A stretch of DNA of 53,499 nt from Pseudohongiella sp. (GTDB lineage: Bacteria; Pseudomonadota; Gammaproteobacteria; Pseudomonadales; Pseudohongiellaceae). The stretch lies in NCBI GenBank assembly GCA_030696315.1, contig JAUYSM010000084.1, positions 1 to 53,499 of the forward strand, written 5' to 3'. Of this stretch, positions 3,526 to 44,646 are shown piece by piece; the first letter of the stretch is position 1; every line of letters begins with the position of its first letter. The position numbers and the translations under genes were made by a program. The notes under the pieces were generated by a model. The model was not told the DNA's origin. It made no database searches and was given only the letters and a program-made list of their open reading frames with translations.

Positions 3526-3570
3526 GCCACAACACTATCCACTACTAACTATAAGCACGAGGAACTCTCC

Positions 3571-3954
3571 GTGAGCGATTTTCCTGATGATTTGAAATAT
3601 GCCGCCACCCACGAATGGCTGCGACTCGAAGAAGACGGCACTGTGACCATGGGTATCAGTGACCATGCCCAGGAACTGCTGGGTGACATCGTTTTTATTG
3701 AACTGCCGGAAGAAGGCAAAGTGGTTGATGCTAAACAGGAAATCAGCGTGGTTGAGTCTGTAAAAGCAGCCTCTGATATCTACGCGCCGATCTCTGGTGA
3801 AATTATTGCTGTTAACGAAGATCTGGCCGATGCGCCGGAAACCGTCAACACCGCACCCTATACCGATGGCTGGATCTGCCGCATCCTGCCAAGCAATCCC
3901 GCTGAACTCGAAGAGCTGCTGGACGCAGATACCTACGCTGGAATGTGTGAATGA
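3571..3954 (+). CDS. gcvH: glycine cleavage system H protein (lipoyl carrier)
   Basis: Small lipoylated shuttle that carries the aminomethyl intermediate between GcvP, GcvT and the L protein. The lipoylation site is the lysine in [19 protein letters not shown], the family signature. N-terminal [14 protein letters not shown] and C-terminal DGWICRI are also typical, and 127 residues is the usual length. The start is GTG 3571 with GAGGAA upstream. The gene lies 45 bp after gcvT, and its TGA overlaps the gcvP ATG (ATGA), so gcvH and gcvP are translationally coupled. Confidence 0.97.
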
Positions 3955-27435: not shown

Positions 27436-27480
27436 CCGGCGGTAACCGGGACATGAGCCAAGAACAATAAAGACGCCGAA
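27436..27480. repeat. half copy of the palindromic element (left arm and half core only)
   Basis: This stretch repeats the left arm and the first half of the core of the complete element 78 bp to its right, with about 90 percent identity. It reads GGCGGTAACCGGGACAT, then GAGCCAAGAACAATAAAG and GACGCCGAA, and stops where the second half of the core should begin. It has no right arm of its own, so it could only fold with the neighbour's right arm. It looks like a truncated or recombined copy. Confidence 0.7.
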
Positions 27481-27512
27481 GCGCTACGCTACCCCTGAGT
27501 CTGGCACAAGCA

Positions 27513-27590
27513 CGGCGGTAACCGGGGCATGAGCGAGGAACAATAAAGACGCCGAAGGCGTCGTTCCGAGGAATGCCCCGGTTCCCGCCG
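27513..27590 (+). repeat. palindromic intergenic element, copy A
   Basis: Arms of 18 bp (27513-27530 and 27573-27590, one mismatch) enclose a core beginning TGAGCGAGGAACAATAAA and ending GTTCCGAGGAA, with an inner GACGCC/GGCGTC hairpin. The core is shared with the elements near 38.2, 39.56 and 39.74 kb; the arm sequence is not. It lies between chrR and nudF, beyond the chrR terminator. Read in the direction of chrR transcription, the core runs in the same sense as the other copies relative to their upstream genes. Confidence 0.85.
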
Positions 27591-27601
27591 GGCGCTACCA
27601 G

Positions 27602-27633
27602 AAAAAAAAATGGCGACCACCTTGGCCGCCATT
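27602..27633 (-). terminator. intrinsic terminator of the sigma/anti-sigma operon
   Basis: On the minus strand a 10-bp stem (27624-27633 with 27609-27618, one G:T) and a five-base loop are followed by a run of nine T residues. It lies 26 bp after the chrR stop. It is a canonical Rho-independent terminator. Confidence 0.9.
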
Positions 27634-27658
27634 CTTGACTCACTATAGACCATCAGCC

Positions 27659-28345
27659 TCAGTGACTAAACCCCGACAAACGATATTGCACAAAAGGCTC
27701 CAGCAACCGATACCACAAAGAACTCGGCTTCACCGGCTGCTCCAGACTCACCAGACAGATACAATCCGTATCCAGCGTCGCCGTTGGCTGATGTCGCTCA
27801 CCAGCATGCCGCACAACAAAATCTCCACGCACATACTTACCGTCAGCATCCGAGAAACTTCCCTTCAACAACACGGTAATTTCCTCACCGCGATGCTCAT
27901 GCTCAGGCATCGGTCGCCCGGCTTTGATGTCATAAATGGCAGTCTGGCGACGCTTGCAACCAACATCCATGGGAGCGATTCGCAGCGAGCCTCCCAGCTT
28001 GACCCAGTTCAGGTCTTGCAGATTGTCACCAGCCAGTTTTTCAACGACCCGTGGGATTCCGGAGGCAGCGAGCGCAGGCCTGCCTGCTCGGACCACACTT
28101 TCCTGGGGAGCTGCAGGCTCAGCAGAATCGATGCGCTGCATCAGACTTTCAAAGCCATCATGCTCATCAGCAATCGGTTCTAACCTTGCCATCATCTGGG
28201 CAGCAACGTCACTGAGTTGTTGCACGTGAGCGCGGCACTTGCCACAAAATTCAAGATGCGCAGCGACACATACCGCTTCTGACATTGCCAGACTGCCCGC
28301 GGCGAAATCTGTCAAAAATTTTGAGTCTGGGTGAAAAGAGACCAT
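27659..28345 (-). CDS. chrR: ChrR-type zinc anti-sigma factor with cupin domain
   Basis: 228-residue anti-sigma factor. The N-terminal zinc anti-sigma domain has the H-x3-C-x2-C motif (HLEFCGKC, about residues 31-38) and an upstream His. The C-terminal cupin domain has MPEHEHRGEEITVLLKGSFSD and a second histidine block (RHAGERHQP). This two-domain layout is that of ChrR of Rhodobacter sphaeroides, which releases sigma-E in response to singlet oxygen or organic peroxide. It lies 50 bp after the sigma gene, in one operon with it, and has its own strong terminator. The symbol is by family. Confidence 0.9.
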   Translation of the reverse strand: MVSFHPDSKFLTDFAAGSLAMSEAVCVAAHLEFCGKCRAHVQQLSDVAAQMMARLEPIADEHDGFESLMQRIDSAEPAAPQESVVRAGRPALAASGIPRVVEKLAGDNLQDLNWVKLGGSLRIAPMDVGCKRRQTAIYDIKAGRPMPEHEHRGEEITVLLKGSFSDADGKYVRGDFVVRHAGERHQPTATLDTDCICLVSLEQPVKPSSLWYRLLEPFVQYRLSGFSH

Positions 28346-28395
28346 TTTATTACCTGAAAAATTAAATCAGCTGTTTAAGCCTTGTTGTCGGAATA

Positions 28396-29037
28396 CTATC
28401 GGTCTATCAGTATCTGCATTTTATTCAGTGCCAGTCGGATCCGGGATTTGACAGTACCAAGCGGTAAGCCCAATTCCTCTGCAACTTCGTTGTGCGACTT
28501 GCCTTCCATAAACGCCTTGTACAACACCTGCACTTGCTCTTCCGGCAAGGTTGCCATCGCTTGCTTGATGACCTGCTCAGCACGACGCTGCTGCATGTCA
28601 ACCAGGGGTTCAGGCGATTCAGCCTCATGCCAGATATCTTCGATATCAATCTCGCGGTTGTTGCGGTCATTGCGCCGGATAAAGTCGATACGCGTGTTAC
28701 GCGCAATCGTGAATATCCATGTATTGACGCTGGCTTTGGCCGGGTTAAAAGATGCGGCTTTATTCCACACCTTGATTAACACTTCTTGAGTAATCTCTTC
28801 AGCCTCAGCCCGATTTGCCCCAGACCCCATGCTTTTGAGCAAAAAAGCTCGAATCAGTGGGGTAAAGTGCTTATACAGCAATTGAAATGCTGCTCTGTCG
28901 CGCTTCACCGCGACCAGCCGTACATTTTCAGCCCATAAGTCGGGCACAGAACTTCGCGTTAGTTGTGTTGCTACACTGTCCATATCGTCATTGTTATCCA
29001 CGTGGATTCCGGTTAGCGCGTCTACAAATGCCATCAT
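28396..29037 (-). CDS. rpoE: ECF RNA polymerase sigma factor (RpoE/ECF11-like, partner of ChrR)
   Basis: 213-residue extracytoplasmic-function sigma factor. Region 2 is visible in HFTPLIRAFLLKSMG ... AEEITQEVLIKVWNKAASFNPAKASVNTWIFTIARNTRIDFIRR. Region 4 is LPEEQVQVLYKAFMEGKSHNEVAEELGLPLGTVKSRIRLALNKM. The pairing with a ChrR-type anti-sigma places it in the ECF11 group controlling photo-oxidative stress. It is autoregulated if the TGATCC/CGTA promoter directly upstream is real. Start at 29037 (or the next ATG, 29034) leaves a leader of about 15 bases; ATG 28983 is an alternative. This RpoE is not the envelope-stress sigma factor of E. coli. Confidence 0.92.
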   Translation of the reverse strand: MMAFVDALTGIHVDNNDDMDSVATQLTRSSVPDLWAENVRLVAVKRDRAAFQLLYKHFTPLIRAFLLKSMGSGANRAEAEEITQEVLIKVWNKAASFNPAKASVNTWIFTIARNTRIDFIRRNDRNNREIDIEDIWHEAESPEPLVDMQQRRAEQVIKQAMATLPEEQVQVLYKAFMEGKSHNEVAEELGLPLGTVKSRIRLALNKMQILIDR

Positions 29038-29058
29038 TTTTAGCGTAGACCCACATTC

Positions 29059-29084
29059 TACGCAAGCTCTTCAGACTCGGATCA
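29059..29084 (-). promoter_or_regulatory. ECF11-type promoter of the rpoE-chrR operon
   Basis: On the minus strand TGATCC (29084-29079), 16 bases, then CGTA (29062-29059). The -10 element ends about 21 bases before the sigma factor ATG. The same motif pair with the same 16-base spacer is found on the other strand of this intergenic region, which makes chance unlikely. The motif fits what is known of RpoE/ChrR-group promoters (TGATC and CGTA elements) and predicts autoregulation. Confidence 0.8.
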
Positions 29085-29106
29085 CCCATCTAGAAGGCGC
29101 GTGTTT

Positions 29107-29132
29107 TGATCCACCTGATTGCAGTTGCCGTA
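29107..29132 (+). promoter_or_regulatory. ECF11-type promoter of the lipid-modification operon
   Basis: TGATCC (29107-29112), 16 bases, CGTA (29129-29132), followed by TCTAATCC. It lies 43 bases before the start of the NTF2-like gene and is the mirror partner of the rpoE promoter. It would place all five downstream genes under the sigma factor encoded beside them. Confidence 0.8.
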
Positions 29133-29175
29133 TCTAATCCTATCTAGCACACGCTTACCCTCAGAGTTTAATTAA

Positions 29176-29634
29176 ATGGCCACCGAAATGAATTCAGTCA
29201 GCGAAAATTTGCGAACCGCTTTACTGAACGACTTCAAGGACTTCTACCGCAATCCAGGCATCGCCTCGCTTGAAAACATTCAGCGCGTTTACACTCAGGA
29301 CGTGGAATTTCGGGATCCGGCACACGCGCTGCATGGCCGCCTGGCTGTAAAAAATTATTTACGCAGCCTGTATGCCAGCACCAAATACATGAAATTTGAC
29401 TATCTGGAGGAGCAGATTGGTGAACATACGGCTACCATCGTCTGGCAGATGACTTTTAGTCATACCAGCCTCAATGGCGGAAATCCCGTGGAAGTACGGG
29501 GTGTTACGCTGATTCGGTTTACTGACCGTGTTTATTACCATGAAGACTTCTTTGATCTTGGCGCTATGCTTTATCAGCATGTGCCGGTACTTGGATCAGT
29601 AATCAGGTACATTAATAATCGTTTAAGCGCATAG
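29176..29634 (+). CDS. NTF2/SnoaL-like domain protein of the ECF regulon
   Basis: 152-residue single-domain protein with the cone-shaped NTF2-like fold pattern: helical N-terminus, IQRVYTQDVEFRDPAHALHGRLAVKNYLRSLYAS, then strands ending in DRVYYHEDFFDLGAMLYQHVPVLGSVIRYI. No signal peptide is present. Genes of this kind commonly open the operon next to rpoE-chrR in gammaproteobacteria. Catalytic residues are not evident and it may bind a lipid or an intermediate. It is first in the operon, behind the ECF-type promoter; the next gene follows after 30 bases. Confidence 0.78.
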   Translation: MATEMNSVSENLRTALLNDFKDFYRNPGIASLENIQRVYTQDVEFRDPAHALHGRLAVKNYLRSLYASTKYMKFDYLEEQIGEHTATIVWQMTFSHTSLNGGNPVEVRGVTLIRFTDRVYYHEDFFDLGAMLYQHVPVLGSVIRYINNRLSA

Positions 29635-29664
29635 TTGTTTACCTCTACGCCTTTTGGACATGAA

Positions 29665-30465
29665 ATGAGTAGCAATGAATACAGCAGTCACAATGTCTGG
29701 ATAACCGGCGCAGGGTCCGGGATTGGACGCGCCCTCGCCCTGCATTACGCTGCACAAGGCTCACACGTGGTGATCAGTGGTCGCACCTTGGACAAATTAC
29801 ACCAGGTTCGTGATGCTGCTGCATCGCTGCCGGGCCAGATCAGCTGCCTGCCCTTTGACGTGACAGATGCCGAGTCTGTTAACAGCACCAGCGAGGCGCT
29901 ACGCGCTATTGTTCCTCATCTGGATCTGGCAGTGCTTAATGCTGGCACCTGTGAGTACATCAAGAAGGGGAATCTTGACCCTGCGCTTTTCCGACGGGTA
30001 ATGGATACCAACTTTTTTGGTTTTATTCATTCAATCAATGCCGCCCTTCCGCTGCTGAAAGCAGCCAGCACTAAACCTCACCTTGCGGGTGTATGCAGCC
30101 TGGCGGCTTTTATCGGTTTTCCTCGCGCGGAGGCTTATGGCGCTTCCAAAGCAGCAGCTCGCTACCTGCTGAATTCAGTTCGCACAGATTATAGCGATCT
30201 GATGGATGTGACAGTGGTTAACCCAGGGTTTGTCACCACGCCGATGACCGCCGCCAACGACTTTCCAATGCCGTTTGAAATGGATGCGGAGAACGCAGCA
30301 CAGCGAATTGCCTCAGCACTCATAAAACGGCCTCTGGAATACAATTTCCCGAACCGATTGACCTGGGTATTGCGATTGGCACAACTATTTAATGGCATCT
30401 GGTACCGGCAGATCAGCAAACAACGCAGAACTGACAACGCCGCCAAGAGGAAAACAGCGGGATGA
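29665..30465 (+). CDS. short-chain dehydrogenase/reductase of the ECF regulon
   Basis: 266-residue NAD(P)-dependent SDR. The cofactor motif is TGAGSGIGRAL, followed by NAG (VLNAGTCEY). The catalytic Ser lies in GVCSLAAFIGFPRAEAYGASKAA, with the Tyr-x3-Lys as YGASK. Start is ATG 29665 (TTTTGGA upstream); an in-frame TTG at 29635 would add ten residues but directly abuts the previous stop. Its TGA overlaps the ATG of the DUF1365 gene. The likely substrate is a lipid or fatty-acyl intermediate, inferred from its neighbours. Confidence 0.88.
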   Translation: MSSNEYSSHNVWITGAGSGIGRALALHYAAQGSHVVISGRTLDKLHQVRDAAASLPGQISCLPFDVTDAESVNSTSEALRAIVPHLDLAVLNAGTCEYIKKGNLDPALFRRVMDTNFFGFIHSINAALPLLKAASTKPHLAGVCSLAAFIGFPRAEAYGASKAAARYLLNSVRTDYSDLMDVTVVNPGFVTTPMTAANDFPMPFEMDAENAAQRIASALIKRPLEYNFPNRLTWVLRLAQLFNGIWYRQISKQRRTDNAAKRKTAG

Positions 30466-31262
30466 ACAGCGCCATCTACACTGGCATTGTGAGGCATAGA
30501 CGCTTACACCCGGTACTGCATCACTTCAGATACCGCGTGTTTATGATGTATCTCGATCTGGATGAGCTGAAAACCGTGTTTGATGACTCGTGGTGCTGGT
30601 CTTCGCGCAATCCAGCCTTGGCATGGTTCCGCCGCAAAGACTTTCTCAATCCTGAGACCCCTGATTTAAAGCAGGCGGTGCTGGATTGCGTGCAAGCATC
30701 AACCGGTGAGCGCCCGGATGGCGCTGTGTGTGTACTCAGCAACTTGCGTTACTTTGGATACCTGGTTAACCCGATTACCTGCTACTACGTGTTTGGAAAA
30801 GACGGAGCATTGCGGTTTGTTGTTGCAGAAGTAACCAACACGCCTTGGGGCGAAAGTACGCACTATGTTATCCCGTGTGGCACTGTCTCTGATGGAGCTT
30901 TCAGCTTTGAAAAACAAATGCACGTGTCACCTTTTATGCCCATGAATATGACCTATCGTTGGCGCAGCTCCTCACCGGCCCAGCGTTTGAATCTGAATCT
31001 CCAGAACTGGCAGGCCGATCGCCAGGTTTTTAATGCCAGCCTGTCCTTGCAAAAACAGGCTCTTACGCCCGGCAACTTGAGGCGCATGCTCATGCTGTAT
31101 CCACTGATGACCGTTCAAGTGTTTGTTGCCATCTACTGGCAAGCTTTAAAATTATTTGTCAAAAAAGTGCCCATTGTTGCGCACCCCGCTCATGTTCCAC
31201 CTGCGATAACACAGCCCGCTATACCACAGCCGGCGATAACACAAAGAGACAAGCCATTATGA
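30462..31262 (+). CDS. DUF1365 family protein
   Basis: 266 residues with the DUF1365 signature at the N-terminus (AIYTGIVRHRRLHPVLHHFRYRVFMMYLDLDEL) and NLRYFGYLVNPITCYYVF plus EVTNTPWGESTHYVI in the middle. DUF1365 proteins are almost always encoded beside CFA-synthase-like methyltransferases and, in Rhodobacter, belong to the RpoE/ChrR regulon. No catalytic mechanism is established. Four-base overlaps on both sides show tight translational coupling. The C-terminus carries a short Pro-Ala-Ile-Thr-Gln repeat (PPAITQPAIPQPAITQ). Confidence 0.9.
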   Translation: MNSAIYTGIVRHRRLHPVLHHFRYRVFMMYLDLDELKTVFDDSWCWSSRNPALAWFRRKDFLNPETPDLKQAVLDCVQASTGERPDGAVCVLSNLRYFGYLVNPITCYYVFGKDGALRFVVAEVTNTPWGESTHYVIPCGTVSDGAFSFEKQMHVSPFMPMNMTYRWRSSSPAQRLNLNLQNWQADRQVFNASLSLQKQALTPGNLRRMLMLYPLMTVQVFVAIYWQALKLFVKKVPIVAHPAHVPPAITQPAIPQPAITQRDKPL

Positions 31263-32593
31263 AATCTCCGGGTAACCGTCAGACCGGCGCAGTTCAAACG
31301 GCTGCGCGTCAACATGCTTTAGACGTCGAGCAAAGTTCACCTGTCCAAAACTTTATGAGCCACGCGACGCGCATTCAACGCATAGCAAGACATTTACTGT
31401 TCAGAAAGTTGTCACAGATCAGCTCAGGAAGAATTGTGATTGACGAAGGCACCGCCGTGCACAGCTTTGGTGAGACGAATTCAGAGGCCTTGACGGCACA
31501 CGTGATTGTGTCGCATCCGGCCTTTTATCCTGCCGTCGCCTTTAACGGCAGTATCGGCGGAGGCGAGTCCTACATGCAGCAACACTGGCATACTCCGGAT
31601 CTGGTGACCCTGGTGCGCATCATGGTCATCAACATGAGCATGTTGGATGCACTGGATGGCGGAAAGGCAGCGATTGCCCGATTTATGGACAAGATCATGC
31701 ATCTTCGTAATCGCAATACGATTGCTGGATCACGTAAAAACATTTCCGCACATTACGATTTGAGCAATGAATTTTTTGCAAGCTTTCTTGACCCGACCAT
31801 GATGTATTCATCTGCTATTTTTCGTGACGAGCAGCAGACATTGCATGAAGCATCAATTAACAAACTCAACCATATTTGTGAACGCCTGCAACTGAAACCA
31901 GGCGACCATCTGATTGAAATCGGCACAGGCTGGGGCTCCATGGCAATTCATGCCGCCAGACATTTCGGCTGTAAAGTGACCACCACCACCATTTCACAAG
32001 AGCAATTTAAACACGCTAGCGAACGTGTCAAAGCAGAAGGTCTGGAAAACCAGGTAGAACTGCTTTTGAAGGACTACCGCGACCTGACAGGCAAATACGA
32101 TAAACTGGTATCTATTGAAATGATTGAGGCCGTCGGGCATGAGTATTTTGCCAACTATTTTGAAAAATGCTCCTCGCTCTTGAAACCGGATGGCCTGATG
32201 CTGATACAGGCCATCACGATTTCGGATCAACGTTACGAATCAGCAAAACGCACAGTTGATTTTATTCAGCGTTATATTTTCCCGGGCGGCTGTCTGCCCA
32301 GCAACAGTGTCATCGCAGCACATGTTGCCAAAAATACTGATCTGCAGATTGTAGGGCTGGAAGACATCACGCGCGATTATGCGATGACGCTCGAACGCTG
32401 GCGCAAAACGTTCCTGAGCAAGCTCAAGGACATTCAGGCGCAAGGTTTCGGGCCTGATTTTATCAGGATGTGGGACTACTACCTGGCATATTGCCAAGGT
32501 GGTTTTATGGAACGGGTCATCCACACGGCACAGATTGTCATGGCGAAACCTCAACACCGTATGCAGGCACTGCACGCGAGAATCCCAAAATGA
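31259..32593 (+). CDS. cyclopropane-fatty-acyl-phospholipid synthase family methyltransferase
   Basis: 444-residue SAM-dependent enzyme that acts on unsaturated acyl chains of membrane phospholipids. The SAM site is EIGTGWGSMAIHAARHFGCKV. HYDLSNEFFASFLDPTMMYSSAIF and VDFIQRYIFPGGCLPSN are family active-site blocks. It is about 60 residues longer at the N-terminus than E. coli Cfa (382). Members in RpoE/ChrR operons may make cyclopropane, methylated or furan fatty acids, so the symbol is withheld. It overlaps DUF1365 and the following gene by four bases each. Confidence 0.9.
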   Translation: MKSPGNRQTGAVQTAARQHALDVEQSSPVQNFMSHATRIQRIARHLLFRKLSQISSGRIVIDEGTAVHSFGETNSEALTAHVIVSHPAFYPAVAFNGSIGGGESYMQQHWHTPDLVTLVRIMVINMSMLDALDGGKAAIARFMDKIMHLRNRNTIAGSRKNISAHYDLSNEFFASFLDPTMMYSSAIFRDEQQTLHEASINKLNHICERLQLKPGDHLIEIGTGWGSMAIHAARHFGCKVTTTTISQEQFKHASERVKAEGLENQVELLLKDYRDLTGKYDKLVSIEMIEAVGHEYFANYFEKCSSLLKPDGLMLIQAITISDQRYESAKRTVDFIQRYIFPGGCLPSNSVIAAHVAKNTDLQIVGLEDITRDYAMTLERWRKTFLSKLKDIQAQGFGPDFIRMWDYYLAYCQGGFMERVIHTAQIVMAKPQHRMQALHARIPK

Positions 32594-33342
32594 ACCGACG
32601 TCGAACTATTCAGCATAGCTTACTGATTGTCGCCGGACTGCTCTGGCAGAGCAGTTACGGCGCTACTGACGAAGCCAACTTGTGGGCAATTGGTACGGCA
32701 TGGACACCCGACAAGTCGGACGTGCTTTACCGAGAATATCATTTTGCCGAAGACCCCAATCTGGACCTGACCACCCGTGTCCAATACCGCCGCCCGGATG
32801 GCAGCGTGTTTGCCGAGAAGACCATTGATTACTCTCGGTCACTGACAGCACCGGAAATACAACATATCGACTACCGCAATACCGCAAGAATCAACACGGA
32901 GTTTTTGGAAGATGCGCGATCAGCGATGATCAAAGTGGGTTTTCAGGCGCATGACAGTGAACGCTATCGGGAAGAACTGCTGACGTACCGGGATTCCGTG
33001 GTTGTGGATGCAGGTTTTGATCCTTTTGTACGGAAGAACTGGCAGTCACTGGTTGCGGGAACATCCGTTGGTGCGGCCATGCTGGTCCCCTCGCGTCTGG
33101 ACACGGTGAGAATCAGTCTGATTAAAACTGACCACCGATTCTGCGATGCTAATAATGCAGATATCTACTGCTTTGTGGTCCGGCCCGCTGGCATGCTGCG
33201 CGCCGTTGGCTGGTTTGTCGACCCTATCTACATTGGTTATGACAAGGACTCTAAACGACTCAAAAACTTTAATGGCATCAGCAACCTACGTGATGACAAT
33301 GACCAACCTCGTAACGTACTGATCAGCTTTGAGTACTTCTGA
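32590..33342 (+). CDS. exported protein of unknown function, last gene of the ECF regulon
   Basis: 250 residues from ATG 32590, which overlaps the methyltransferase stop. A signal peptide covers about residues 1-24 (HSLLIVAGLLWQSSYG, cleavage near GA). The mature part is rich in charged and aromatic residues without membrane segments: VLYREYHFAEDPNLDLTTRVQYRRPDGSVFAEKTIDYSRS and later VPSRLDTVRISLIKTD. I do not recognise the family. The position at the end of a lipid-modification operon suggests a periplasmic or outer-membrane lipid-related role, which is inference only. Confidence 0.75.
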   Translation: MNRRRTIQHSLLIVAGLLWQSSYGATDEANLWAIGTAWTPDKSDVLYREYHFAEDPNLDLTTRVQYRRPDGSVFAEKTIDYSRSLTAPEIQHIDYRNTARINTEFLEDARSAMIKVGFQAHDSERYREELLTYRDSVVVDAGFDPFVRKNWQSLVAGTSVGAAMLVPSRLDTVRISLIKTDHRFCDANNADIYCFVVRPAGMLRAVGWFVDPIYIGYDKDSKRLKNFNGISNLRDDNDQPRNVLISFEYF

Positions 33343-33421
33343 GTGAATCTGCACAAAAGCTTTAAGTCAGTTTTTGAGTGGCCTGAGGTATAATCCCGCG
33401 CCTCAAGCGGAGGAGCACCCC

Positions 33422-34018
33422 ATGCCTTTACCCAATCCCGTAGCACGGGAACATATCCATACACGCAAAGTCAATTTTGAAGGCTTTGAGCGTGAAGATG
33501 GTCGTTTTGATATCGAGGCCCATCTGATTGATACAAAAACTTATGCGTTCAGTAATAACTGGCGGGGCACCATAGAGCCCGGCGTCGCTTTGCATGAGAT
33601 GTTGCTGCGTGTGACCATCAATGACAAGTTTGTCATTGAGGATATCGAAGCCGCCACCGACAACAGTCCGTTTGCAATCTGTCCGGACATCGCGATTGAC
33701 TATAAAAAGTTGATCGGAGTGACCATGGGGCCGGGCTGGCGCAACATGATCCGCAGTCGACTCGGCGGCTTAAAAGGCTGCACACACCTGACTGAATTGT
33801 TGTACCCCATGGCGACAGTTGCCATTCAGACCATACGACCCTTGCAGAACCATCGACGTCGCAAGGCAGACTCAGACAGCCGCCACCATGCTGGCAAACC
33901 TTTTGTTCTGAACACCTGTCATGCCTGGGCAGAATATTCGCCGGTGGTGAAAGAAAATGCGCCAGACTATTACGTGCCGCGCGAACTGAGTGAACTGATT
34001 GCCACTGACAGCGATTGA
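33422..34018 (+). CDS. DUF2889 family protein
   Basis: 198 residues from ATG 33422, preceded by GGAGGAG at ideal spacing. The family block is HIHTRKVNFEGFEREDGRFDIEAHLIDTKTYAFSNNWRGTIEPGVALHEMLLRVTINDKFVIEDIEAATDNSPFAICPD, with GGLKGCTHLTELL further on. DUF2889 proteins have no known function. A good -10 element (TATAAT at 33389-33394) lies 28 bases upstream, so it probably has its own promoter, separate from the ECF operon. Confidence 0.85.
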   Translation: MPLPNPVAREHIHTRKVNFEGFEREDGRFDIEAHLIDTKTYAFSNNWRGTIEPGVALHEMLLRVTINDKFVIEDIEAATDNSPFAICPDIAIDYKKLIGVTMGPGWRNMIRSRLGGLKGCTHLTELLYPMATVAIQTIRPLQNHRRRKADSDSRHHAGKPFVLNTCHAWAEYSPVVKENAPDYYVPRELSELIATDSD

Positions 34019-34031
34019 ATGGGCAACATAG

Positions 34032-34072
34032 GGAGTCGGAGCCCATTTCCTTCGGAAATATCCTCCGACTCC
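34032..34072. repeat. long hairpin after the DUF2889 gene
   Basis: GGAGTCGGAG (34032-34041) pairs with CTCCGACTCC (34063-34072). A second stem, ATTTCC with GGAAAT and a TTC loop, stacks inside (34045-34059). It lies between convergent DUF2889 and histidine kinase genes. It looks like a REP-type element rather than a simple terminator because there is no T-tract. Confidence 0.7.
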
Positions 34073-34087
34073 TGACACCGCTCCCCT

Positions 34088-34135
34088 TTAAGCCCCTGCT
34101 CCGTTAAGCCCCTGCTCCGTTAAGCCCGTGCCACG
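34088..34135. repeat. 16-bp tandem repeat, three units
   Basis: TTAAGCCCCTGCTCCG occurs at 34088-34103 and 34104-34119, exactly repeated. A third, diverged unit TTAAGCCCGTGCCACG follows at 34120-34135. The array ends at the base before the stop codon of the convergent histidine kinase gene. The same 16-base phase continues with TTAA into that stop. Confidence 0.8.
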
Positions 34136-36331
34136 TTAATCCAGCAACGGAATGACCAGCGTAATCGCCACGCCCTCATACTCTTTGATGTTGTCGGCTC
34201 GTATTTGTCCCTGGTGGAATTCTGCCACCAATCGTGCAATATGCAGCCCCATGCCTAAGTGTGGCTCGCGCTGTTTTTCCTGAGGCCGCACCGAGATCAT
34301 GGAATCAAACAGGCGACCCTTCATTTCTTCAGGCAGGTAAGGTCCGTAGTTGGTGACTCGCACCACTGCACGATCTTTGATCGCACGGCAGAAAACAGTA
34401 ATTGGCTTTTTGTAGTAGCTGAACTCAACGGCATTAGCGATGAGTTTGTCCATCAATTGTGCGATGTATTCCGGCACACCGTTGATCATCACACAACCTT
34501 CAAGATCGGCGTCGATGACGGCATCGGGATAGGCCAATCGATACCCCTCAACACAGCCGGCCAAGACCTTTACCAGATCTATTTTTTCTTTCTCTGAGGT
34601 CTGCAGCATCTGCTCGAGCCGGGTTGCTTCACTCATATTGGTCAGAATCAGGTTCAGGCGACTGATCCCCTCTTCAGCGCGCTGGATATAAACAGCAGAC
34701 TCTTTGTCTTGGGAAACCATGCCCAGATTCTCGAGGGAGGAACGCACTACGGTAACGGGCGTACGTAGCTCATGCGACAAGCGCGACGACATGTTCTCCA
34801 GATAGTTGGTGTATTGACCCAGGCGTTCCACCATGTTGTAAAAGCTTCGGGAAAGGTCGCCAATTTCATCTGAACTTTTTGTGGCGATAATTGTATTTTT
34901 GAGCCGCCCGTTGTCATCAATAATATTTTCTGCCTGATTCCTCAGCGCTCGTATGCGTGTTGATATCCGTGATGCAAAAAAGAACAAGCCAAACGCTACC
35001 AGTAACATGACACCGAGAATAGTATTGAACAGTGTCTCCATGGCCTGATTACGGAAGGTTCTCAGACCATTCATATTCTGGTCGACCACAACCGCACCCA
35101 TAATTTCGCCGTCTGCAAAGATGGGGTAAGCGGCTTCCAGAATTCGGGTTTGATCCTCGTTGATTGTTCTGAACTGGGTCTGGGCTTCGCCTCCCAATGC
35201 GGAGCTCAAATGTGCCCCTTCCAAGCGGCTACCGACATACAGTTCATCAATAAAATCGTTAGAGGGCTTGGTCAGTATCTGATAATAAATAGGGTGAAGT
35301 ATCTTGTCTTCGAGAATGCGCAGATACCTGTTACGTTCTTCGTCGTCCTGTGGCGAGGTTAAGGACAATCCGGTTGCCGACTGTATATCACCAACACTTA
35401 GCAATACACGACGCGTTCTGTCGACTACCTGGATACGAGAGTCGGTATACCCCATGCCCTCGACAATCTTGTCAATTTCCGGTGTAGGCCTCTGAACAGC
35501 GCCAAGTCGCTCAATATCGTTAACATTCGACGTGGCGACAACTGCCGTTACATTGCGGGTTTCAGGGTCGTCTACATCATAGACAGCAAATCCCAGCTTG
35601 GAACCCAGCATCGTTAAAGGCATGCGAAGCTCGATGGTGTAGCCATCCAGATTTTCATACCACTGACCGCTGATGCGCTCTTCATGCCTCAGCGAACCAA
35701 TATCGCGCAAATCACTGCCTATTTCGTAGGCATAAATGAATTCCGGACCGCGGGGTGACACAACATAACGCCTTAGCTCGCCATCAGGGCCGCTCATGGA
35801 AATCTGCACAAAATCACTGCGGTGAATGCTCAGACTGTCAGGCGCTCGATACACAACATTGTTGTCTACAACGTTGATGTAGGCATACAAAAAGCGATTG
35901 TGTTCGCCCACCAACAATTTGAAGTTAAGCGACTCATCGTTGTGGTAGTAACGAGAGAACTCACTTTGAGGATTCAGTGGTGTAGCAATGGTATTTGCCC
36001 GACCATAGGACAGTTCATAGCGTTGATAATCGCCCCAGTCTGTGAGGGTATTATCATCAAGACCCAATGCATAATAGATCGGATAGACATACAGGTTTTC
36101 GCTGCGCCGCGCGGGACCAAACGTGCCTTCGTCAAAAAGCTCAGGGCGCTCGTTCAGCGCAGTCGCCAAAGCCCGGGCAGTGCCAAGCACAACCTGTTCC
36201 TGACCACGGCGCAAGTAGTCTTCCATTTCCAGAATATAGCGATACCCCAACCACGGGATAACAAGCAGAAAACTGGACAAAAATACCAGCTTGAAGCGAA
36301 TGCCAAATGGGTGTTTAAGGGCTTTAGTCAT
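34136..36331 (-). CDS. sensor histidine kinase resembling the proteobacterial dedicated-sortase-system kinase
   Basis: 731-residue membrane sensor kinase. An N-terminal membrane segment (about 14-33) and a second near 440-465 flank a large periplasmic region. HAMP follows. The HisKA domain has the phospho-acceptor His520 in SSRLSHELRTPVTVVRSSLENLG, and the HATPase domain has an N-box (MDKLIANAVEFSYY). The long sensor region and its pairing match the dedicated-sortase-system kinase (PdsS type), but no sortase or sortase substrate is encoded in the window. It follows the response regulator after 17 bases in the same operon. Confidence 0.82.
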   Translation of the reverse strand: MTKALKHPFGIRFKLVFLSSFLLVIPWLGYRYILEMEDYLRRGQEQVVLGTARALATALNERPELFDEGTFGPARRSENLYVYPIYYALGLDDNTLTDWGDYQRYELSYGRANTIATPLNPQSEFSRYYHNDESLNFKLLVGEHNRFLYAYINVVDNNVVYRAPDSLSIHRSDFVQISMSGPDGELRRYVVSPRGPEFIYAYEIGSDLRDIGSLRHEERISGQWYENLDGYTIELRMPLTMLGSKLGFAVYDVDDPETRNVTAVVATSNVNDIERLGAVQRPTPEIDKIVEGMGYTDSRIQVVDRTRRVLLSVGDIQSATGLSLTSPQDDEERNRYLRILEDKILHPIYYQILTKPSNDFIDELYVGSRLEGAHLSSALGGEAQTQFRTINEDQTRILEAAYPIFADGEIMGAVVVDQNMNGLRTFRNQAMETLFNTILGVMLLVAFGLFFFASRISTRIRALRNQAENIIDDNGRLKNTIIATKSSDEIGDLSRSFYNMVERLGQYTNYLENMSSRLSHELRTPVTVVRSSLENLGMVSQDKESAVYIQRAEEGISRLNLILTNMSEATRLEQMLQTSEKEKIDLVKVLAGCVEGYRLAYPDAVIDADLEGCVMINGVPEYIAQLMDKLIANAVEFSYYKKPITVFCRAIKDRAVVRVTNYGPYLPEEMKGRLFDSMISVRPQEKQREPHLGMGLHIARLVAEFHQGQIRADNIKEYEGVAITLVIPLLD

Positions 36332-36348
36332 GTTCCAGGCACCCGCTG

Positions 36349-37098
36349 CTAATCGCCTCCATCTCCATCGCTGTCTCCATCGATGGCAACGTCGCCGCCA
36401 CCAATCATTTGTGTATTCCAGCGATACCCCATGCCATAGACTGTTTCTATGCAGTCGAATTCCGGTGCAACCTGCATAAACTTCTTACGGATACGTTTAA
36501 CGTGCGAGGTAATTGTGCTGCCATCCACAAAAATCTTGGATTCCTGCATTAACACCTGGCGACTTTTGACATGACCGGGAAACTTGACCAGCGCGTGCAC
36601 CATCCAGAACTCTGTCACAGTCAGTGGAACAGCCTGCCCATCCCACTGAATGGTCAGCCTGCCAATATCCAGCACCAGTTTTTCTCGCTGCAGCAGGTTT
36701 TCCGGTGAGGTTGGCTGATTCAACGCATCCTGCCGACGGAACAACGCGGCAATGCGTGCCGACAAGTGTGGCAGGCTGATATCTTTTGTCAGATAGTCAT
36801 CTGCGCCCATACGCAGGCCGCTGACCGTGTCAAAGTCGTTGTCTCGCGCAGTCAGGAAAATGATAGGCAAGGTTTCTGACATCGATCTCAGGCTCTGGCA
36901 AAGTGCAAATCCGCCGTCGATCTCGTTTTCCAGACCAATATCGATAATCGCCAGATTGGGTAATCGCAAGTCAAACGCGCGCATGGCATCGCGCCTGTTG
37001 GCGAATGTCTGGACCTCGTAGCCTTGTTTACGCAACACATCTGCGTAGTTCTCACGTATTGCTGCTTCGTCTTCAACAATCGCAATTCGTCGAGCCAT
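36349..37098 (-). CDS. OmpR-family response regulator resembling the dedicated-sortase-system regulator
   Basis: 249 residues from ATG 37098, which has GAAGG at good spacing; the reading frame is open further upstream but has no such site. The receiver domain has the acidic pair in VEDEAA, phospho-acceptor Asp53 (LAIIDIG) and LTKD as the Lys motif. The winged-helix C-terminus (LTVTEFWMVHALVKFPGHVKSRQVLM ... VYGMGYRW) is OmpR-like. A tail rich in Asp and Gly (GDVAIDGDSDGDGGD) closes the protein. It is the cognate partner of the adjacent kinase. Confidence 0.88.
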   Translation of the reverse strand: MARRIAIVEDEAAIRENYADVLRKQGYEVQTFANRRDAMRAFDLRLPNLAIIDIGLENEIDGGFALCQSLRSMSETLPIIFLTARDNDFDTVSGLRMGADDYLTKDISLPHLSARIAALFRRQDALNQPTSPENLLQREKLVLDIGRLTIQWDGQAVPLTVTEFWMVHALVKFPGHVKSRQVLMQESKIFVDGSTITSHVKRIRKKFMQVAPEFDCIETVYGMGYRWNTQMIGGGDVAIDGDSDGDGGD

Positions 37099-37313
37099 CG
37101 TACACCTTCCCCAAAATACCCTCAGGGCGCTGACTATACCGTATTTATGCGGACAACAAAGTGGTCGAAGCCTCGCGTAACCACATGCCATTATTCTGAC
37201 ATATTTGTTCAGCACAATGCCCTTGTTTACGCCTGCCAACGCAAGAAATCTCCTGTCTAATCCCCAGAGAACAACAGCTATTGCTGGATATTTTTTGCTT
37301 GGAGCCTGCACTG

Positions 37314-37976
37314 ATGAGCACTACCAGACTGGTAATTGGAGACAAGAATTTTTCATCCTGGTCACTGCGACCCTGGTTATTGTTAAAAAACTTCGAAATC
37401 CCGTTTGAAGAGGTCAACGTAGCACTTTATCAAGGCAATACTGCCGAGAAGCTGGGGCCTTTATCGCCCTCGCTGAAAGTGCCGGCGTTTCAGCATCGCG
37501 ATACCACCGTATGGGACTCCATTGCGATTTGCGAATACATATCGGAAGCCTTGCTGGATGGTAAAGGCTGGCCCAGCAGCCCTCGTAAACGCGCGACCGC
37601 ACGCTCCATATGCGCTGAAGTACACGCGGAGTTCCCGAATTTGAAGCGCGATTGGCCGATGAACTGCCACGCGTCCGTCAAGTTGTCGGTGACAGACGCG
37701 ATCGCCGACGAAATCGCGCGTATCGACGCGATCTGGAGCTGCTGCCGCCGGAAACACGGTGCCGGCGGCGAGTACCTGTTTGGTCGATTCTCTATTGCTG
37801 ATTGTATGTATGCGCCCATGGCCATTGCATTTCGCGCATATGGGGCGGAACTCAGTGGCCCCGCACAAAAATACGCGGATACCATTCTCGCCAACCCATG
37901 GGTGCAGGAATGGATTCGTCAGGGTAAAGCAGAGCAGCGAAGCAAAGTTGTTTTAAGTTCTGTCAGTAGTTTGTAG
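37314..37976 (+). CDS. glutathione S-transferase family protein
   Basis: 220 residues from ATG 37314 with GGAG 9 bases upstream. The N-terminal thioredoxin-like domain reads TRLVIGDKNFSSWSLRPWLLLKNFEIPFEEVNV, and KVPAFQHRDTTVWDSIAICEYISE holds the conserved cis-Pro and the Ser-Ile pair. The helical C-terminal domain ends GRFSIADCMYAPMAIAFRAYG. The SSWSLRPW start is typical of a bacterial GST subgroup resembling YfcF. It probably conjugates or reduces with glutathione; the substrate is unknown. It is followed by a GTA-rich tract and a terminator. Confidence 0.88.
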   Translation: MSTTRLVIGDKNFSSWSLRPWLLLKNFEIPFEEVNVALYQGNTAEKLGPLSPSLKVPAFQHRDTTVWDSIAICEYISEALLDGKGWPSSPRKRATARSICAEVHAEFPNLKRDWPMNCHASVKLSVTDAIADEIARIDAIWSCCRRKHGAGGEYLFGRFSIADCMYAPMAIAFRAYGAELSGPAQKYADTILANPWVQEWIRQGKAEQRSKVVLSSVSSL

Positions 37977-38078
37977 TAGTAGTGGCAGTAGTAAGTGGTA
38001 GCGAGTGTTTGTATATGAGTGTGTTGGAAGTAACTCCTTGAAGTAGTGTTGTGAAACTTGTGGCAAGAGTGACTTTGA

Positions 38079-38106
38079 GCAGGCCTTTATGGCCTGCTTT
38101 TTTTTT
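38079..38106 (+). terminator. intrinsic terminator after the GST gene
   Basis: GCAGGCC, a five-base loop, GGCCTGC and nine T residues: a perfect Rho-independent terminator on the plus strand, 103 bp after the GST stop. Confidence 0.93.
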
Positions 38107-38108
38107 GC

Positions 38109-38240
38109 CCTTCGATTCCGGTCGCACACTGAGCCAAGGGCAGTTCCTCAGAACGGCGCTGCGCGCCTGATTGTCCTTCGATTCCGGTCGCACACTGAGC
38201 CAAGGGCAGTTCCTCAGAACGGCGCTGCGCGCCTGATTGT
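38109..38240 (+). repeat. two exact 66-bp tandem copies within palindromic element B
   Basis: Units 38109-38174 and 38175-38240 are identical. Each runs from CCTTCGATTCCGG through the left arm GCACACTGAGCCAAGGGCAG to the end of the core half (GCCTGATTGT). The second unit passes directly into the rest of the complete element. The exact identity indicates a recent duplication. Confidence 0.9.
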
Positions 38241-38270
38241 TCTTCGCTCACTGCCCTTGGCTCAGTGTGC
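38190..38270 (-). repeat. palindromic intergenic element, copy B
   Basis: Perfect 20-bp arms (38190-38209 and 38251-38270) enclose a 41-base core (38210-38250). The core reads on the minus strand from TGAGCGAAGAACAAT to GTTCTGAGGAA. The inner hairpin is the GCGC type shared with copy D. A further left arm, from the duplicated unit, lies at 38124-38143. It follows the GST gene and precedes the diguanylate cyclase. Confidence 0.88.
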
Positions 38271-38305
38271 TAGTGGGCCGCATCGAGTTCAGCTACACTG
38301 CGCAG

Positions 38306-39493
38306 ATGATGCTCAATGGTATTAAATCTCGTATTTCGCAGATCCAGCGCGACCACCACGCGTTTGGCGATGAGCTCGCGGGCAAATCGTTTAATCGAAT
38401 GTTTATCTTGTCAGTGATTGCGACACTGGTGTCGGCTGCACATATTCCGGTTTTTAGTGCGCTGAGTTTCGAGACAGACATTGAGCAACAATGGCGCCTT
38501 GGGATTGTGGTCTACCATAGCTTCATGTTTTTAATGTGTGCTGCCTTCTGCGTATTGACTCGCCCTGGTCGACAGTTGTCGATCACTGCGCGGCGTCGCA
38601 TCACTAGGGTTCTGCACGGAACGGTGCTATTGGCGGGCGTGGTAGTGACCTCGATTGATCAGCTGGTGACACCCGCAGTCACACCATTTCTGGTGGCATG
38701 CACTGTGGCCGGTGCGTTGTTTATCGTAAACCCCCTGACGGCAGTGCTCATTTATTCCCTGTTGTTTTGCCTTTTTGCCTTGGTTCTACCTCTGACCCAG
38801 ACCAATGAAGCCATCCTGATTTCGAATCTGCTTAATGGACTCACCTCCTGCGGTATCGCTATTGGTTTATCGTGGGTGTTGTGGAAGCAAAATATTCAAG
38901 CGGCGCAACAGCGCGATGTGATTTATCAGCAAAAGGAAGCACTTGAGCTGAGTAACCGTCAGCTCGAGCAACTTGCAACACGCGATGACCTGACCGGGCT
39001 CGCCAACCGCCGTATGCTGCAGATGGTTGCCACAGAAGAACAGTCTCTGATGAATCGCCAGAAAATTCCTGCCTGCTTGTTGTTGCTCGATCTGGATCTT
39101 TTTAAAAACATCAACGACGAGTTGGGTCATCCGGCCGGAGACGAATTGCTGCGTCAACTGGCTGAGTTATTGACTCAAACTGTCCGCGCGTCCGATCGGG
39201 TAGCGCGCTGGGGAGGCGAAGAGTTTGCAATTCTGCTGCGCAACACCGATGCCGATCAAGGCATGCAAGTGGCGGAGAATATTCGTGCGTTTATCGAACA
39301 GCATCGGTTTGAGCTGGCAAATCAGAAAGGCGTGGCCCATGAGGTAGCACTGACCGTCAGTATCGGCGTGGCGCGCTTGGATGCAACTGCGGAGGATATG
39401 CTGGATCATGCCTATCGGGAGGCTGATTTGGCGTTGTATGCGGCAAAGGCCGGTGGTCGAAATCGAGTCGTTTTGCGCGCGAGTGCTGCCTGA
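38306..39493 (+). CDS. membrane-bound diguanylate cyclase (GGDEF)
   Basis: 395 residues from ATG 38306 (or the next ATG, 38309). The longer reading frame to 38237 begins inside the palindromic repeat and is unlikely. The N-terminal half has about six hydrophobic segments (residues 30-190) without a recognised sensor name. A short coiled linker leads to a GGDEF domain: TRDDLTGLANRRML, then the active site RWGGEEFAILL, and SIGVARL near the end. The GGEEF motif and metal-binding Asp (LLDLDLFKNIND) are intact, so it should make c-di-GMP. No RxxD inhibitory site is evident five residues upstream. Its last codons are part of an imperfect inverted repeat. Confidence 0.9.
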   Translation: MMLNGIKSRISQIQRDHHAFGDELAGKSFNRMFILSVIATLVSAAHIPVFSALSFETDIEQQWRLGIVVYHSFMFLMCAAFCVLTRPGRQLSITARRRITRVLHGTVLLAGVVVTSIDQLVTPAVTPFLVACTVAGALFIVNPLTAVLIYSLLFCLFALVLPLTQTNEAILISNLLNGLTSCGIAIGLSWVLWKQNIQAAQQRDVIYQQKEALELSNRQLEQLATRDDLTGLANRRMLQMVATEEQSLMNRQKIPACLLLLDLDLFKNINDELGHPAGDELLRQLAELLTQTVRASDRVARWGGEEFAILLRNTDADQGMQVAENIRAFIEQHRFELANQKGVAHEVALTVSIGVARLDATAEDMLDHAYREADLALYAAKAGGRNRVVLRASAA

Positions 39494-39650
39494 GTAAGGG
39501 GCCGTGAGGTTGGTGCTTATCGCACTCAGCGCAGCGGGTGGTTCCTCAGGACGACGCCTTTGGCGTCTTTATTGTCCTTCGCTCACCACCCGCTGCGCTG
39601 AGTGCTCATTCAAAACCTGAGACGGCCCCTTACTCAGGCGTGCGCTCGCG
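39478..39650. repeat. outer inverted repeat formed from the 3' end of the diguanylate cyclase gene
   Basis: Bases 39478-39505 (last codons, stop codon and 12 bases beyond) are inverted at 39622-39650. Twenty-six of 29 aligned columns match, including 18 consecutive bases around the stop, such as CTGAGTAAGGGGCCGT. Palindromic element C lies between the two arms. Confidence 0.85.
39522..39605 (-). repeat. palindromic intergenic element, copy C
   Basis: Perfect 20-bp arms (39522-39541, GCACTCAGCGCAGCGGGTGG, and 39586-39605) enclose a 44-base core. On the minus strand the core begins TGAGCGAAGGACAATAAA, has the GACGCC/GGCGTC inner hairpin, and ends GTCCTGAGGAA. It follows the diguanylate cyclase gene in the same relative sense as the other copies. 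Confidence 0.9.
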
Positions 39651-39655
39651 GCTAC

Positions 39656-39820
39656 GGATGCGATGCCGGCGCGTGGGGCTGGCACTGTCAATCGATGCCG
39701 CAGGCGGAGCGGGACATGAGCGAGCAATAATCAGGCGCGCAGCGCCATTGCGAGGAATGTCCCGCTCCGCCTGCGGCTATCCAGATATACAATCAAGCCC
39801 CACGCGCCGGCAGCACATCC
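39656..39820. repeat. outer inverted repeat formed from the 3' end of the DAHP synthase gene
   Basis: Bases 39796-39820 are the last sense codons of the minus-strand DAHP synthase gene. They are inverted at 39656-39680 with 23 of 25 matches, 15 of them consecutive (CCGGCGCGTGGGGCT). Palindromic element D lies between the arms. Five bases separate the left arm from the neighbouring outer repeat of the diguanylate cyclase side. Confidence 0.87.
39697..39777 (+). repeat. palindromic intergenic element, copy D
   Basis: Perfect 21-bp arms (39697-39717 and 39757-39777) enclose a core from TGAGCGAGCAATAATCAGG to CATTGCGAGGAA on the plus strand. The inner hairpin is the GCGC type also found in copy B. 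It follows the DAHP synthase gene (minus strand), again with the core in the same sense relative to that gene. Confidence 0.9.
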
Positions 39821-40866
39821 TTCAATTTCGCGGCCATCTCACGAATGCTACGCTCAGTCTCCGCCCAATCAATACAGGCATCCGTCACAGACACACCGTA
39901 CTTGAGATCACACAGATCCTTTGGAATCTTCTGATTACCAAAATTGATATTGCTCTCCAGCATCACCCCCACAATCGACTGATTACCCTCCAGAATCTGA
40001 TGTGATACATCCTTTAATACCAAGGACTGAATCATCGGATCCTTGTTGGAGTTGGCGTGGCTGCAATCGATCATGATGTTAGTGCTGACACCGCCTTTAC
40101 GCAGCGCATCTTCTGTTTGTGCGACGTGTACAGAATCGTAGTTTGGACCTGCGCTACCACCGCGCAGGACGACGTGCGCATAGGGGTTGCCTTTGGTGCG
40201 CACAACCGCCACCTGACCTTCCTTGTTAATGCCGAGGAAACGGTGCGGATTGTTGACCGACTGCATGGCGTTCACCGCCACCATCAATCCACCATCGGTA
40301 CCGTTTTTAAAACCCACTGCTGACGACAGGCCACTGGACATTTCACGGTGTGTCTGCGATTCAGTGGTACGCGCGCCGATGGCAGACCAGGCAATCATAT
40401 CCTGCAAGTACTGCGGCGAAATTGGGTCAAGCGCTTCGGTTGAGGCAGGAAGTCCCATGGAGACGATGTCCAAAAGCAACTTGCGACCGATGCGTAAGCC
40501 ATCCTGAATGCGGAACGTATCATCCATATACGGGTCGTTGATCAGCCCTTTCCAGCCGATGGAGGTACGCGGCTTTTCAAAATACACGCGCATGACCAGA
40601 TACAAGGTGTCTTTGACTTCATCCGCCAAGACTTTCAGACGCTCAGCATACTCAATGGCGGCCTTGGTATCGTGGATAGAGCAGGGCCCCACCACCACAA
40701 AAAGTCGCGGGTCCTTGCGATCCAGAATGTTAAAAATTGTCTGCCGTGCATCACGCACAGACTCCAGCGCCACGCCATCCAATGGCAGTTCAGCTTTTAA
40801 CTGAGCCGGCGTCAGTAAAGTCTCGATAGACTCGATGTTCAGATCATCAGCTTTTAAATCAATCAT
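39793..40866 (-). CDS. 3-deoxy-7-phosphoheptulonate synthase, class I
   Basis: Condenses phosphoenolpyruvate and erythrose 4-phosphate in the first step of aromatic amino acid synthesis. 357 residues from ATG 40866; the TTG just upstream is not needed. Class I blocks are clear: VVGPCSIHDTKAAIEYAERL, MRVYFEKPRTSIGWKGLINDP, IGARTTESQTHREMSSGLS, GFKNGTDG and RGGSAGPNYDS. It is one of the AroF/AroG/AroH isoenzymes; which feedback amino acid it senses cannot be read by inspection. Its last codons form one arm of an inverted repeat around palindromic element D. Confidence 0.95.
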   Translation of the reverse strand: MIDLKADDLNIESIETLLTPAQLKAELPLDGVALESVRDARQTIFNILDRKDPRLFVVVGPCSIHDTKAAIEYAERLKVLADEVKDTLYLVMRVYFEKPRTSIGWKGLINDPYMDDTFRIQDGLRIGRKLLLDIVSMGLPASTEALDPISPQYLQDMIAWSAIGARTTESQTHREMSSGLSSAVGFKNGTDGGLMVAVNAMQSVNNPHRFLGINKEGQVAVVRTKGNPYAHVVLRGGSAGPNYDSVHVAQTEDALRKGGVSTNIMIDCSHANSNKDPMIQSLVLKDVSHQILEGNQSIVGVMLESNINFGNQKIPKDLCDLKYGVSVTDACIDWAETERSIREMAAKLKDVLPARGA

Positions 40867-40913
40867 CAATCACTCTCTAGATTCAATTCTTATGGCTATA
40901 GTTACCCTGGGCC

Positions 40914-44575: not shown

Positions 44576-44633
44576 GGGGACGGAGGCGTACGCCTCCGTC
44601 CCCTTCTAACCTGAGGCGTACGCCTCCGTCCCC
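44576..44633. repeat. GC-rich palindrome with a repeated half, between tolC and hemH
   Basis: A perfect 28-bp palindrome (44576-44603) is built on the centre GAGGCGTACGCCTC with GGGGACG and CGTCCCC outside. Its right 21 bases occur again 30 bp on (44613-44633), each followed by a T-rich stretch. Located between convergent tolC and hemH, it may act as a bidirectional terminator. It is unrelated to the TGAGCGA-core family. Confidence 0.85.
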
Positions 44634-44646
44634 TTTTACTTTTAAC

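Follow-up and report, generated by a model that had tools for sequence, protein, structure and literature searches.

A lineage-specific family of dispersed hairpins in Pseudohongiella-like bacteria whose locus-specific arms appear to change together

How can a dispersed repeat keep its two arms complementary while their sequence differs at nearly every place that it occupies? The question is raised by a stretch of 53,499 nucleotides (nt) from Pseudohongiella sp. (assembly GCA_030696315.1, contig JAUYSM010000084.1; hereafter the window), in which a sequence-only reading had pointed out four palindromic elements, here called A, B, C and D, that share a core running from TGAGCGA to GAGGAA, follow four genes in one and the same orientation, and are enclosed by arms particular to each locus. 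The four complete copies are there with these features: the pattern TGAGCGA-N(20,45)-GAGGAA matches four times in the window against 0.05 expected, a number reached in 0 of 100 shuffles, and the neighbours are indeed chrR and the genes for a glutathione S-transferase (GST), a GGDEF diguanylate cyclase and a DAHP synthase. The four copies belong to a family of ~80-bp hairpins in a group of marine Pseudohongiella-like bacteria. Our preferred reading, to which we give an about even chance, is that this is a lineage-specific family of dispersed single-stranded-DNA hairpins, similar in behaviour to repetitive extragenic palindromic (REP) sequences, whose arms are rewritten by template switching.

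Further genomic copies, whose absence would have told against the sequence-only reading, do exist. In the window's genome (G000), the exact core pattern has ten matches, nine of which are the element by eye and one of which is not (C28:21143), against one match for the reversed control. A covariance model built from 54 copies, with matches accepted at E up to 0.01, gives 29 matches in G000 and is matched in 11 of the 15 genomes of the genus, weak and partial matches being included throughout. The other rich genomes are G001 (34 matches), G014 (31), G010 (25), G003 (21), G004 (18) and G005 (15); four further genomes have two to five matches each, and none was found at this threshold in G007, G009, G011 and G012. 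A DAHP synthase gene tree of 14 genomes, G005 not among them, places the other six rich genomes together in a single clade (support 1.000). From part of the model matches we fetched 127 distinct elements, 25 of them from G000, and the pairing counts over 95 elements and the flank comparison over 94 given below leave out those with cores outside the type-1 pattern or too near a contig end.

Folded as DNA, A to D share a common architecture: outer arms of ~20 bp enclose the internal loop GAGCGA/GAGGA, inside which come an inner stem of 5 bp, a bulge on one side only (either AATCA or AATAAA) and a G-C tip whose loop has three bases. What is fixed across the family is this outer loop together with a head made of CGA, a 5-bp stem of free sequence, the AATCA/AATAAA bulge, a G-C hairpin with, in most elements, a GNA triloop (75 of 95), the returning stem, and GAG. 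The mini-hairpin d(GCGNAGC) is unusually stable in DNA. The tip is 18 nt long in 64 of the 95, the AATCA type being commoner than the AATAAA type. The sequence-only reading had taken TGAGCGA and GAGGAA as the two unpaired sides; a loop is present at this place, but its outermost bases, T and A, show partial covariation (T-A in 56, C-G in 5 and A.A in 24 of 95), so that the loop proper is GAGCGA/GAGGA, a sequence that would allow two tandem sheared G.A steps flanking a C-G pair.

The pairing of the arms and of the inner stem is maintained although their sequence varies. In the 54 elements used for these statistics, which were chosen by core pattern and not by arms, standard pairs fill 95.0% of 1,350 cells (25 pairs x 54 elements) against 60.4% after shuffling, cells changed on both sides number 457 against 136, and the covariation score is 0.877 against 0.218 after shuffling and at most 0.168 after sliding. 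Since arm sequence differs at nearly every locus within a genome, the earlier description of locus-specific arms with pairing kept holds for the family at large. Both strands of A, B, C and D fold about equally well (DNA folding z-scores of -6.5, -8.7, -11.1 and -8.8 for the core strand, and of -6.2, -8.8, -11.7 and -8.7 for the opposite one), and folding energies therefore choose no strand. Among 92 distinct arm pairs, G-T outnumbers A-C by 53 to 15 (p=4e-6; 32 to 10 when counted per element, p=9e-4), so either the strand carrying TGAGCGA folds or it is more exposed to C-to-T change; the excess is compatible with folding of an RNA, with folding of a single strand of DNA or with C-to-T change confined to one strand.

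Comparison of orthologous loci indicates how the arms come to differ. Ten pairs of copies from G000 and G004, with flanks 78-98% identical, differ at 54 of 200 arm positions, 38 of them with both partners changed, and the loci are uneven, arms being unchanged at some and largely new at others. Across the full set of 76 ortholog pairs compared, which includes some loose matches, positions with two-sided changes number 314 and those with one-sided changes 225. At element C the arms read GCAC-TCAGCGCAG-CGGGTGG in G000, GCAC-ACTGAAGTC-CGGGTGG in G004 and GCAC-ACCGGGAGC-CGGGTGG in G001, and at C13:8794 the G000 copy has an extra GT and an extra A in both arms relative to G004 and G005, that is, matched indels of 2 nt and 1 nt. 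Matched multi-base changes or indels in both arms are what template switching at quasipalindromes would leave; among 19 chosen pairs, besides the indels at C13:8794, there is a matched block at C2:926396 of G001 relative to G010. Matched indels are hard to produce by independent compensation and easy to produce by copying one arm, and thus favour arm copying. Template switching makes and repairs hairpins and gives multi-base compensatory changes, as outlined in PMC8794818.

A second line of evidence lies outside the arms. On the far side of both C and D there is an inverted copy of the end of the adjoining gene (Table 1). The copy of the DAHP synthase end beyond the D arm is also present in G001, G004 and G014; in G000 and G014 the copy is closest to the gene of its own species, and that of G014 shares its variant. 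G010, which has no elements at the C/D locus, shows neither gene-end copy by eye. When the flanks of 94 elements were compared in this way, 22 exceeded the 95th percentile of the control and 13 the 99th. Together, the joint arm changes and the inverted gene-end copies point to arm copying, which would explain why the arms differ, a matter on which the earlier account was silent.

Copies have also been gained, and the way in which they are broken may indicate where the process starts. An element at C22:139710 of G014 is absent from 12 of the 12 other genomes examined, G003 and G004 lying outside the comparison. We considered, and rejected, the insertion of a bare core into pre-existing terminators or palindromes: no arm sequence could be seen by eye at this site in the 12 element-less genomes, a check limited by their 20-30% divergence. 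Among the genomes read at the C57 locus, G000 and G001 carry oppositely oriented elements and G003, G010, G014 and four others have none; in G003 there is a short palindrome similar to one arm, either the scar of a deletion or perhaps an original single arm. At C25:29326 of G010, a new element stands where one would expect the left half of an older element, itself seen in G000 and G003, and is followed by the old right half, and the same nested replacement is found on comparing G001 (L011) with G003 (L143). All eight right-half copies, at seven loci, begin at the CGA of TGAGCGA (seven are model hits, one of which the model starts three bases earlier, and the eighth is that beside B in the window), which suggests a fixed cut or stall point at the TGAG/CGA junction. 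Of the earlier proposal of a mobile repeat, the mobility is thus borne out by gains at new sites and nested insertions; the REP-associated tyrosine transposase (RAYT) that had been suggested as a companion does exist in the genus, but carries repeats of its own.

According to the preferred reading, the strand carrying TGAGCGA would fold while single-stranded during replication, and TGAG/CGA may be the site at which a nuclease or transposase specific for single strands acts, or else a fixed stall point of the polymerase. The growing gene-sense strand, having copied the gene end, one arm and the head, would fold back on the head and copy its own earlier arm, sometimes running on into the adjoining gene end, and the arms would be rewritten repeatedly by such template switching. 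They would be locus-specific because they are made from local DNA, and fold-back copying would account at once for locus-specific arms, close pairing, gene-end copies and half copies. A more far-reaching version, which we offer as tentative and as clearly less probable than the reading just given, is that of a self-writing palindrome: a short mobile head, cut or stalled at TGAG/CGA, would make its long arms from adjacent DNA and go on rewriting them. Inheritance as sequence would then be limited to the head, all else being passed on as a relation of pairing.

Several observations weigh against arm rewriting by fold-back copying. One-sided arm changes are common (225 of 539), and many copies must be old, because many loci are common to several species (26 groups). 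The arms are in part conserved, with GGGNNR beside the core and purines at some positions in the 95 elements. The excess of G-T is compatible with RNA too, and both strands fold equally well. The junction has its exceptions, since the left half of A ends inside the tip and an old remnant at C596 of G004 keeps GAGCGA. At D, the copies in G001 and G004 score higher against the gene of G000, and G003 has no copy. When flanks with a terminal inverted repeat (TIR) motif or a second core are excluded as confounders, leaving 38 of 45 locus groups and 77 of the 94 elements, 7 of the 38 groups exceed the 95th percentile and 2 the 99th, and the mean over the 38 is not significant (22 of 300 derangements reach it); gene-end copying is therefore clear at few loci and no general rule. 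Finally, no mobilising enzyme was found, the RAYT of the genus being flanked by other palindromes.

The features of the window are collected in Table 1, including two partial copies, beside A and B, that the sequence-only reading had missed. A terminator-like T-run lies between gene and element at A and B, and none at C and D. The listed open reading frame (ORF) of the GGDEF diguanylate cyclase (region 38237-38300) begins with TTG inside element B; either its true start is further in, or element B supplies an early start.

Table 1. Elements, partial copies, neighbouring genes and inverted gene-end copies in the window.
Feature	Position	Strand	Remarks
Element A, complete	27510-27593	+	20-nt arms; core 27530-27573; GACGCC-type tip; model boundaries
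Element B, complete	38190-38270	-	21-bp arms; GGCGC-type tip; model boundaries
Element C, complete	39522-39605	-	21-bp arms; GACGCC-type tip; model boundaries
Element D, complete	39697-39777	+	21-bp arms; GGCGC-type tip; model boundaries
Left-half partial copy of A	27437-27481	+	arm, TGAGC.., stem and part of tip; 93% identity over 45 nt
Right-half tandem copy of B	38124-38180	-	within 66-bp direct repeat 38105-38236; starts at CGA in core sense
ChrR-family anti-sigma factor gene	27659-28345	-	Cupin_7; TIGR02451; 3' end faces element A
GST gene	37281-37976	+	upstream of element B
GGDEF diguanylate cyclase ORF	38237-39493	+	3' end faces element C; real start probably more internal
DAHP synthase gene	39793-40869	-	3' end faces element D
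Inverted 18-nt copy of GGDEF gene end including stop	39622-39639	-	source 39488-39505; far side of C
Inverted copy of last DAHP synthase codons	39656-39680	+	source 39796-39820; far side of D

The orientation noted for the four window copies is a general bias. With genes taken as longest-ORF calls, some of them spurious, and read in core sense, the right-hand gene points at the element in 100 of 123 cases, the element lying at a median of 42.5 nt after the stop; counted by orthologous locus, 30 of 35 groups have their elements at the 3' end of a gene with this one orientation (p=2e-5). Relative to the gene that ends beside the element, the core strand (TGAGCGA...GAGGAA) is the antisense strand, as it is at chrR and the GST, GGDEF and DAHP synthase genes. 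Among 26 cases of neighbouring elements at most 300 bp apart, 18 are back to back (minus then plus), one is opposite and seven are in tandem.

Such placement invites explanations in terms of RNA. The core strand, transcribed from the left gene or from a promoter of its own, could act as an RNA element or as an antisense RNA at the neighbouring 3' end, and the covariation would then reflect selection on RNA pairing. The strong covariation, the fixed loops, the excess of G-T over A-C on the core strand, the positions common to several species, and a left gene that reads toward the element on that strand (at 61 of the 91 type-1 elements for which both neighbours were called) are all as this explanation would have them. 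However, the left gene points away in the remaining 30, G-T occupies only 54 of 1,862 arm cells, and the matched indels and multi-base matched changes between sister species speak for copying. Moreover, no conserved position was found 25-110 nt upstream of the core across 95 elements, hence no promoter-like position at a fixed distance (promoters at variable distance were not looked for), and Rfam 15 gives no match at gathering score in the window; four loci searched at E<=1 gave only microRNA models below the cut-off. We regard a structured RNA as doubtful, and as slightly less probable than the self-writing palindrome. The 3'-end RNA structure of the sequence-only reading is likewise doubtful: the core strand lies antisense to the neighbouring gene, and within 110 nt upstream of it no sequence is conserved at a fixed distance. 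Less probable again is an extra transcription terminator or 3'-end mRNA stabiliser acting in the gene-sense RNA. The short distance after the stop would suit it, as would the AATAAA-type tip, which in gene sense reads GACGCC-TTT-GGCGTC-TTTATT, whereas the commoner AATCA type does not give TTTATT, most copies (those with the 18-nt tip) having TGATT or similar in place of a T-run. Furthermore, in 22 of 75 cases there is already a T-run between gene and element, and wobble in the gene-sense RNA would appear as A-C, the rarer mismatch, while the G-T excess favours the other strand.

We think it unlikely, and a little more so than a terminator, that the elements are an ordinary REP family moved by the RAYT of the genus (Y1 transposase, PF01797). 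A short RAYT was found in nine of the 15 genomes, all nine with element matches, and four of the six genomes without it have none, though these are related genomes and the co-occurrence is not independent; bulged REP hairpins are, as outlined in PMC8266576, processed as single strands. Yet element matches occur in G004 and G013, where the search found no short RAYT, the element has no GTAG foot, and it is GGGGACG palindromes that lie around eight of the nine short RAYT genes (they were not seen at that of G001). In the 24 stretches around Y1 genes of both kinds, the element model has one match, at E 0.29, and a TIR-like motif is near only 15 of the 127 elements, against 9 of 257 control gene ends. 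The least probable explanation, to which we give very little weight, is that of attC-type recombination sites, folded single strands exchanged at TGAG/CGA by a tyrosine recombinase. Structure conserved over sequence, fixed orientation after genes, and a CGA junction at which old right halves are kept would all agree with it, but the neighbours at many loci are homologous between species and are not cassettes.

The surroundings of the RAYT genes deserve description in their own right. At L155 (G000:C39, 1354-2170), and at the RAYT loci L151-L159 except L154, a short Y1 transposase lies among GGGGACG palindromes, a setting like that outlined in PMC3733652 for TIR-flanked transposases. The inner arms of these palindromes differ between species (GGATCA, GAGATCA, GGAGC and others), so that they form a second family with fixed ends and variable paired arms. 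A palindrome of the same type, GGGGACGGAGGCGTACGCCTCCGTCCCC, lies with a partial direct repeat at 44576-44640 of the window.

Where searched, the full form of the element was found only in one group of Pseudohongiella-like genomes. At the family level, 12 of 137 genomes match, 11 of them in the genus; in an order-wide sample, at least 3 of 390 do, all in the genus, a lower bound because few candidates were scored per genome and known matches in G006 and G008 were lost under stricter filters. A scan of named genomes gave 61 stretches, 45 from the genus group. Fourteen of the other 16 were rejected as members, as they show the tip pattern without arms and look like chance; the remaining two are from Baikal-deep-G147 and carry a sister form. 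This sister form, with the same tip and CGA/GAG junction, is seen at L221, L196 and L236 in Baikal-deep-G147 and G103, which belong to another genus of the family, and its arms look alike between copies.

Weaker matches within the genus represent sub-types that keep the tip with other internal loops, e.g. GTGCGTCGA/GAGACCCAC, while in G006 and G008 a sub-type keeps the loop and lacks the tip hairpin. In G008 (L129, 185-247 and 3029-3091), a short form without tip hairpin lies between inverted GGCGGTCTACGTCCCC and GGGGACGTAGACCGCC ends, as in a small non-autonomous transposon. The place between the GST and DAHP synthase genes carries in G002, G006 and G013 a tip of this kind with another loop, and the locus therefore looks old. 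In G000 (L111, G000:C6, ~2990-3840), a small gene and another small ORF lie between two type-2 elements that are inverted relative to each other; the product of the small gene begins MQILTYEEIEQVSGG, which resembles a double-glycine bacteriocin leader.

Strong covariation is commonly read as the sign of a functional RNA, and in this family much of it may stem from DNA copying; the comparison of G-T with A-C between strands and the matched indels are ways to separate selection on RNA from copying of DNA. If the fold-back reading is true, these elements are a natural repeated system for the origin of palindromes, and a repeat may spread with only its tip as heritable sequence. Literature searches, which lay largely outside subscription papers, gave no paper joining 'template switch' with 'extragenic palindromic', nor one joining 'Pseudohongiella' with 'palindromic'.

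Among known systems, the attC sites of integrons are recognised as folded single strands, with variable stems and a fixed orientation after genes. The element shares these three features, the folded single strand as a proposal, but no cassettes were seen at the element loci compared. Like the REP sequences of REP/RAYT systems (REPtrons), as far as these are outlined in PMC3733652, PMC8266576 and PMC6006769, it is a dispersed, extragenic, looped hairpin that occurs after genes, in inverted pairs and in clusters, with a strand-specific single-strand fold as its likely working form; its copies are many (29 matches in G000), extragenic and mostly 3' of genes (30 of 35 locus groups). Unlike REPs, which are 20-40 bp long with a largely shared stem, it measures 81-84 bp, has arms that differ at nearly every locus and does not flank a RAYT gene. 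Neither foot tetranucleotide, GTAG or CGTC, is present, the flank profile of 95 elements preferring only an A before the arm (64 of 95); CGTC repeats lack a RAYT association in what PMC3733652 outlines. As foot motif and RAYT flanking are both wanting, we describe the element as REP-like in several respects and do not file it as a REP, in agreement, as far as REP goes, with the sequence-only reading. TIRtrons (GGGGWSAS motif; outlined in PMC3733652) are also palindromic repeats, present in the same genomes by our own assignment from the GGGGACGG motif; unlike the element, they are here the separate repeat that flanks the RAYT, and the element lies near them only at times (15 of 127). The closest parallel for the arms is template-switch mutation at quasipalindromes, in which, as outlined in PMC8794818 (see also PMC7202029), reverse-complement copying builds or repairs hairpin arms and leaves matched multi-base changes. 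It is described as a mutation process, whereas in this family it may be seeded at many loci by a dispersed and conserved head. Palindromic dispersed repeats are thus known as a kind, and it is the manner in which this family keeps its arms that is unusual.

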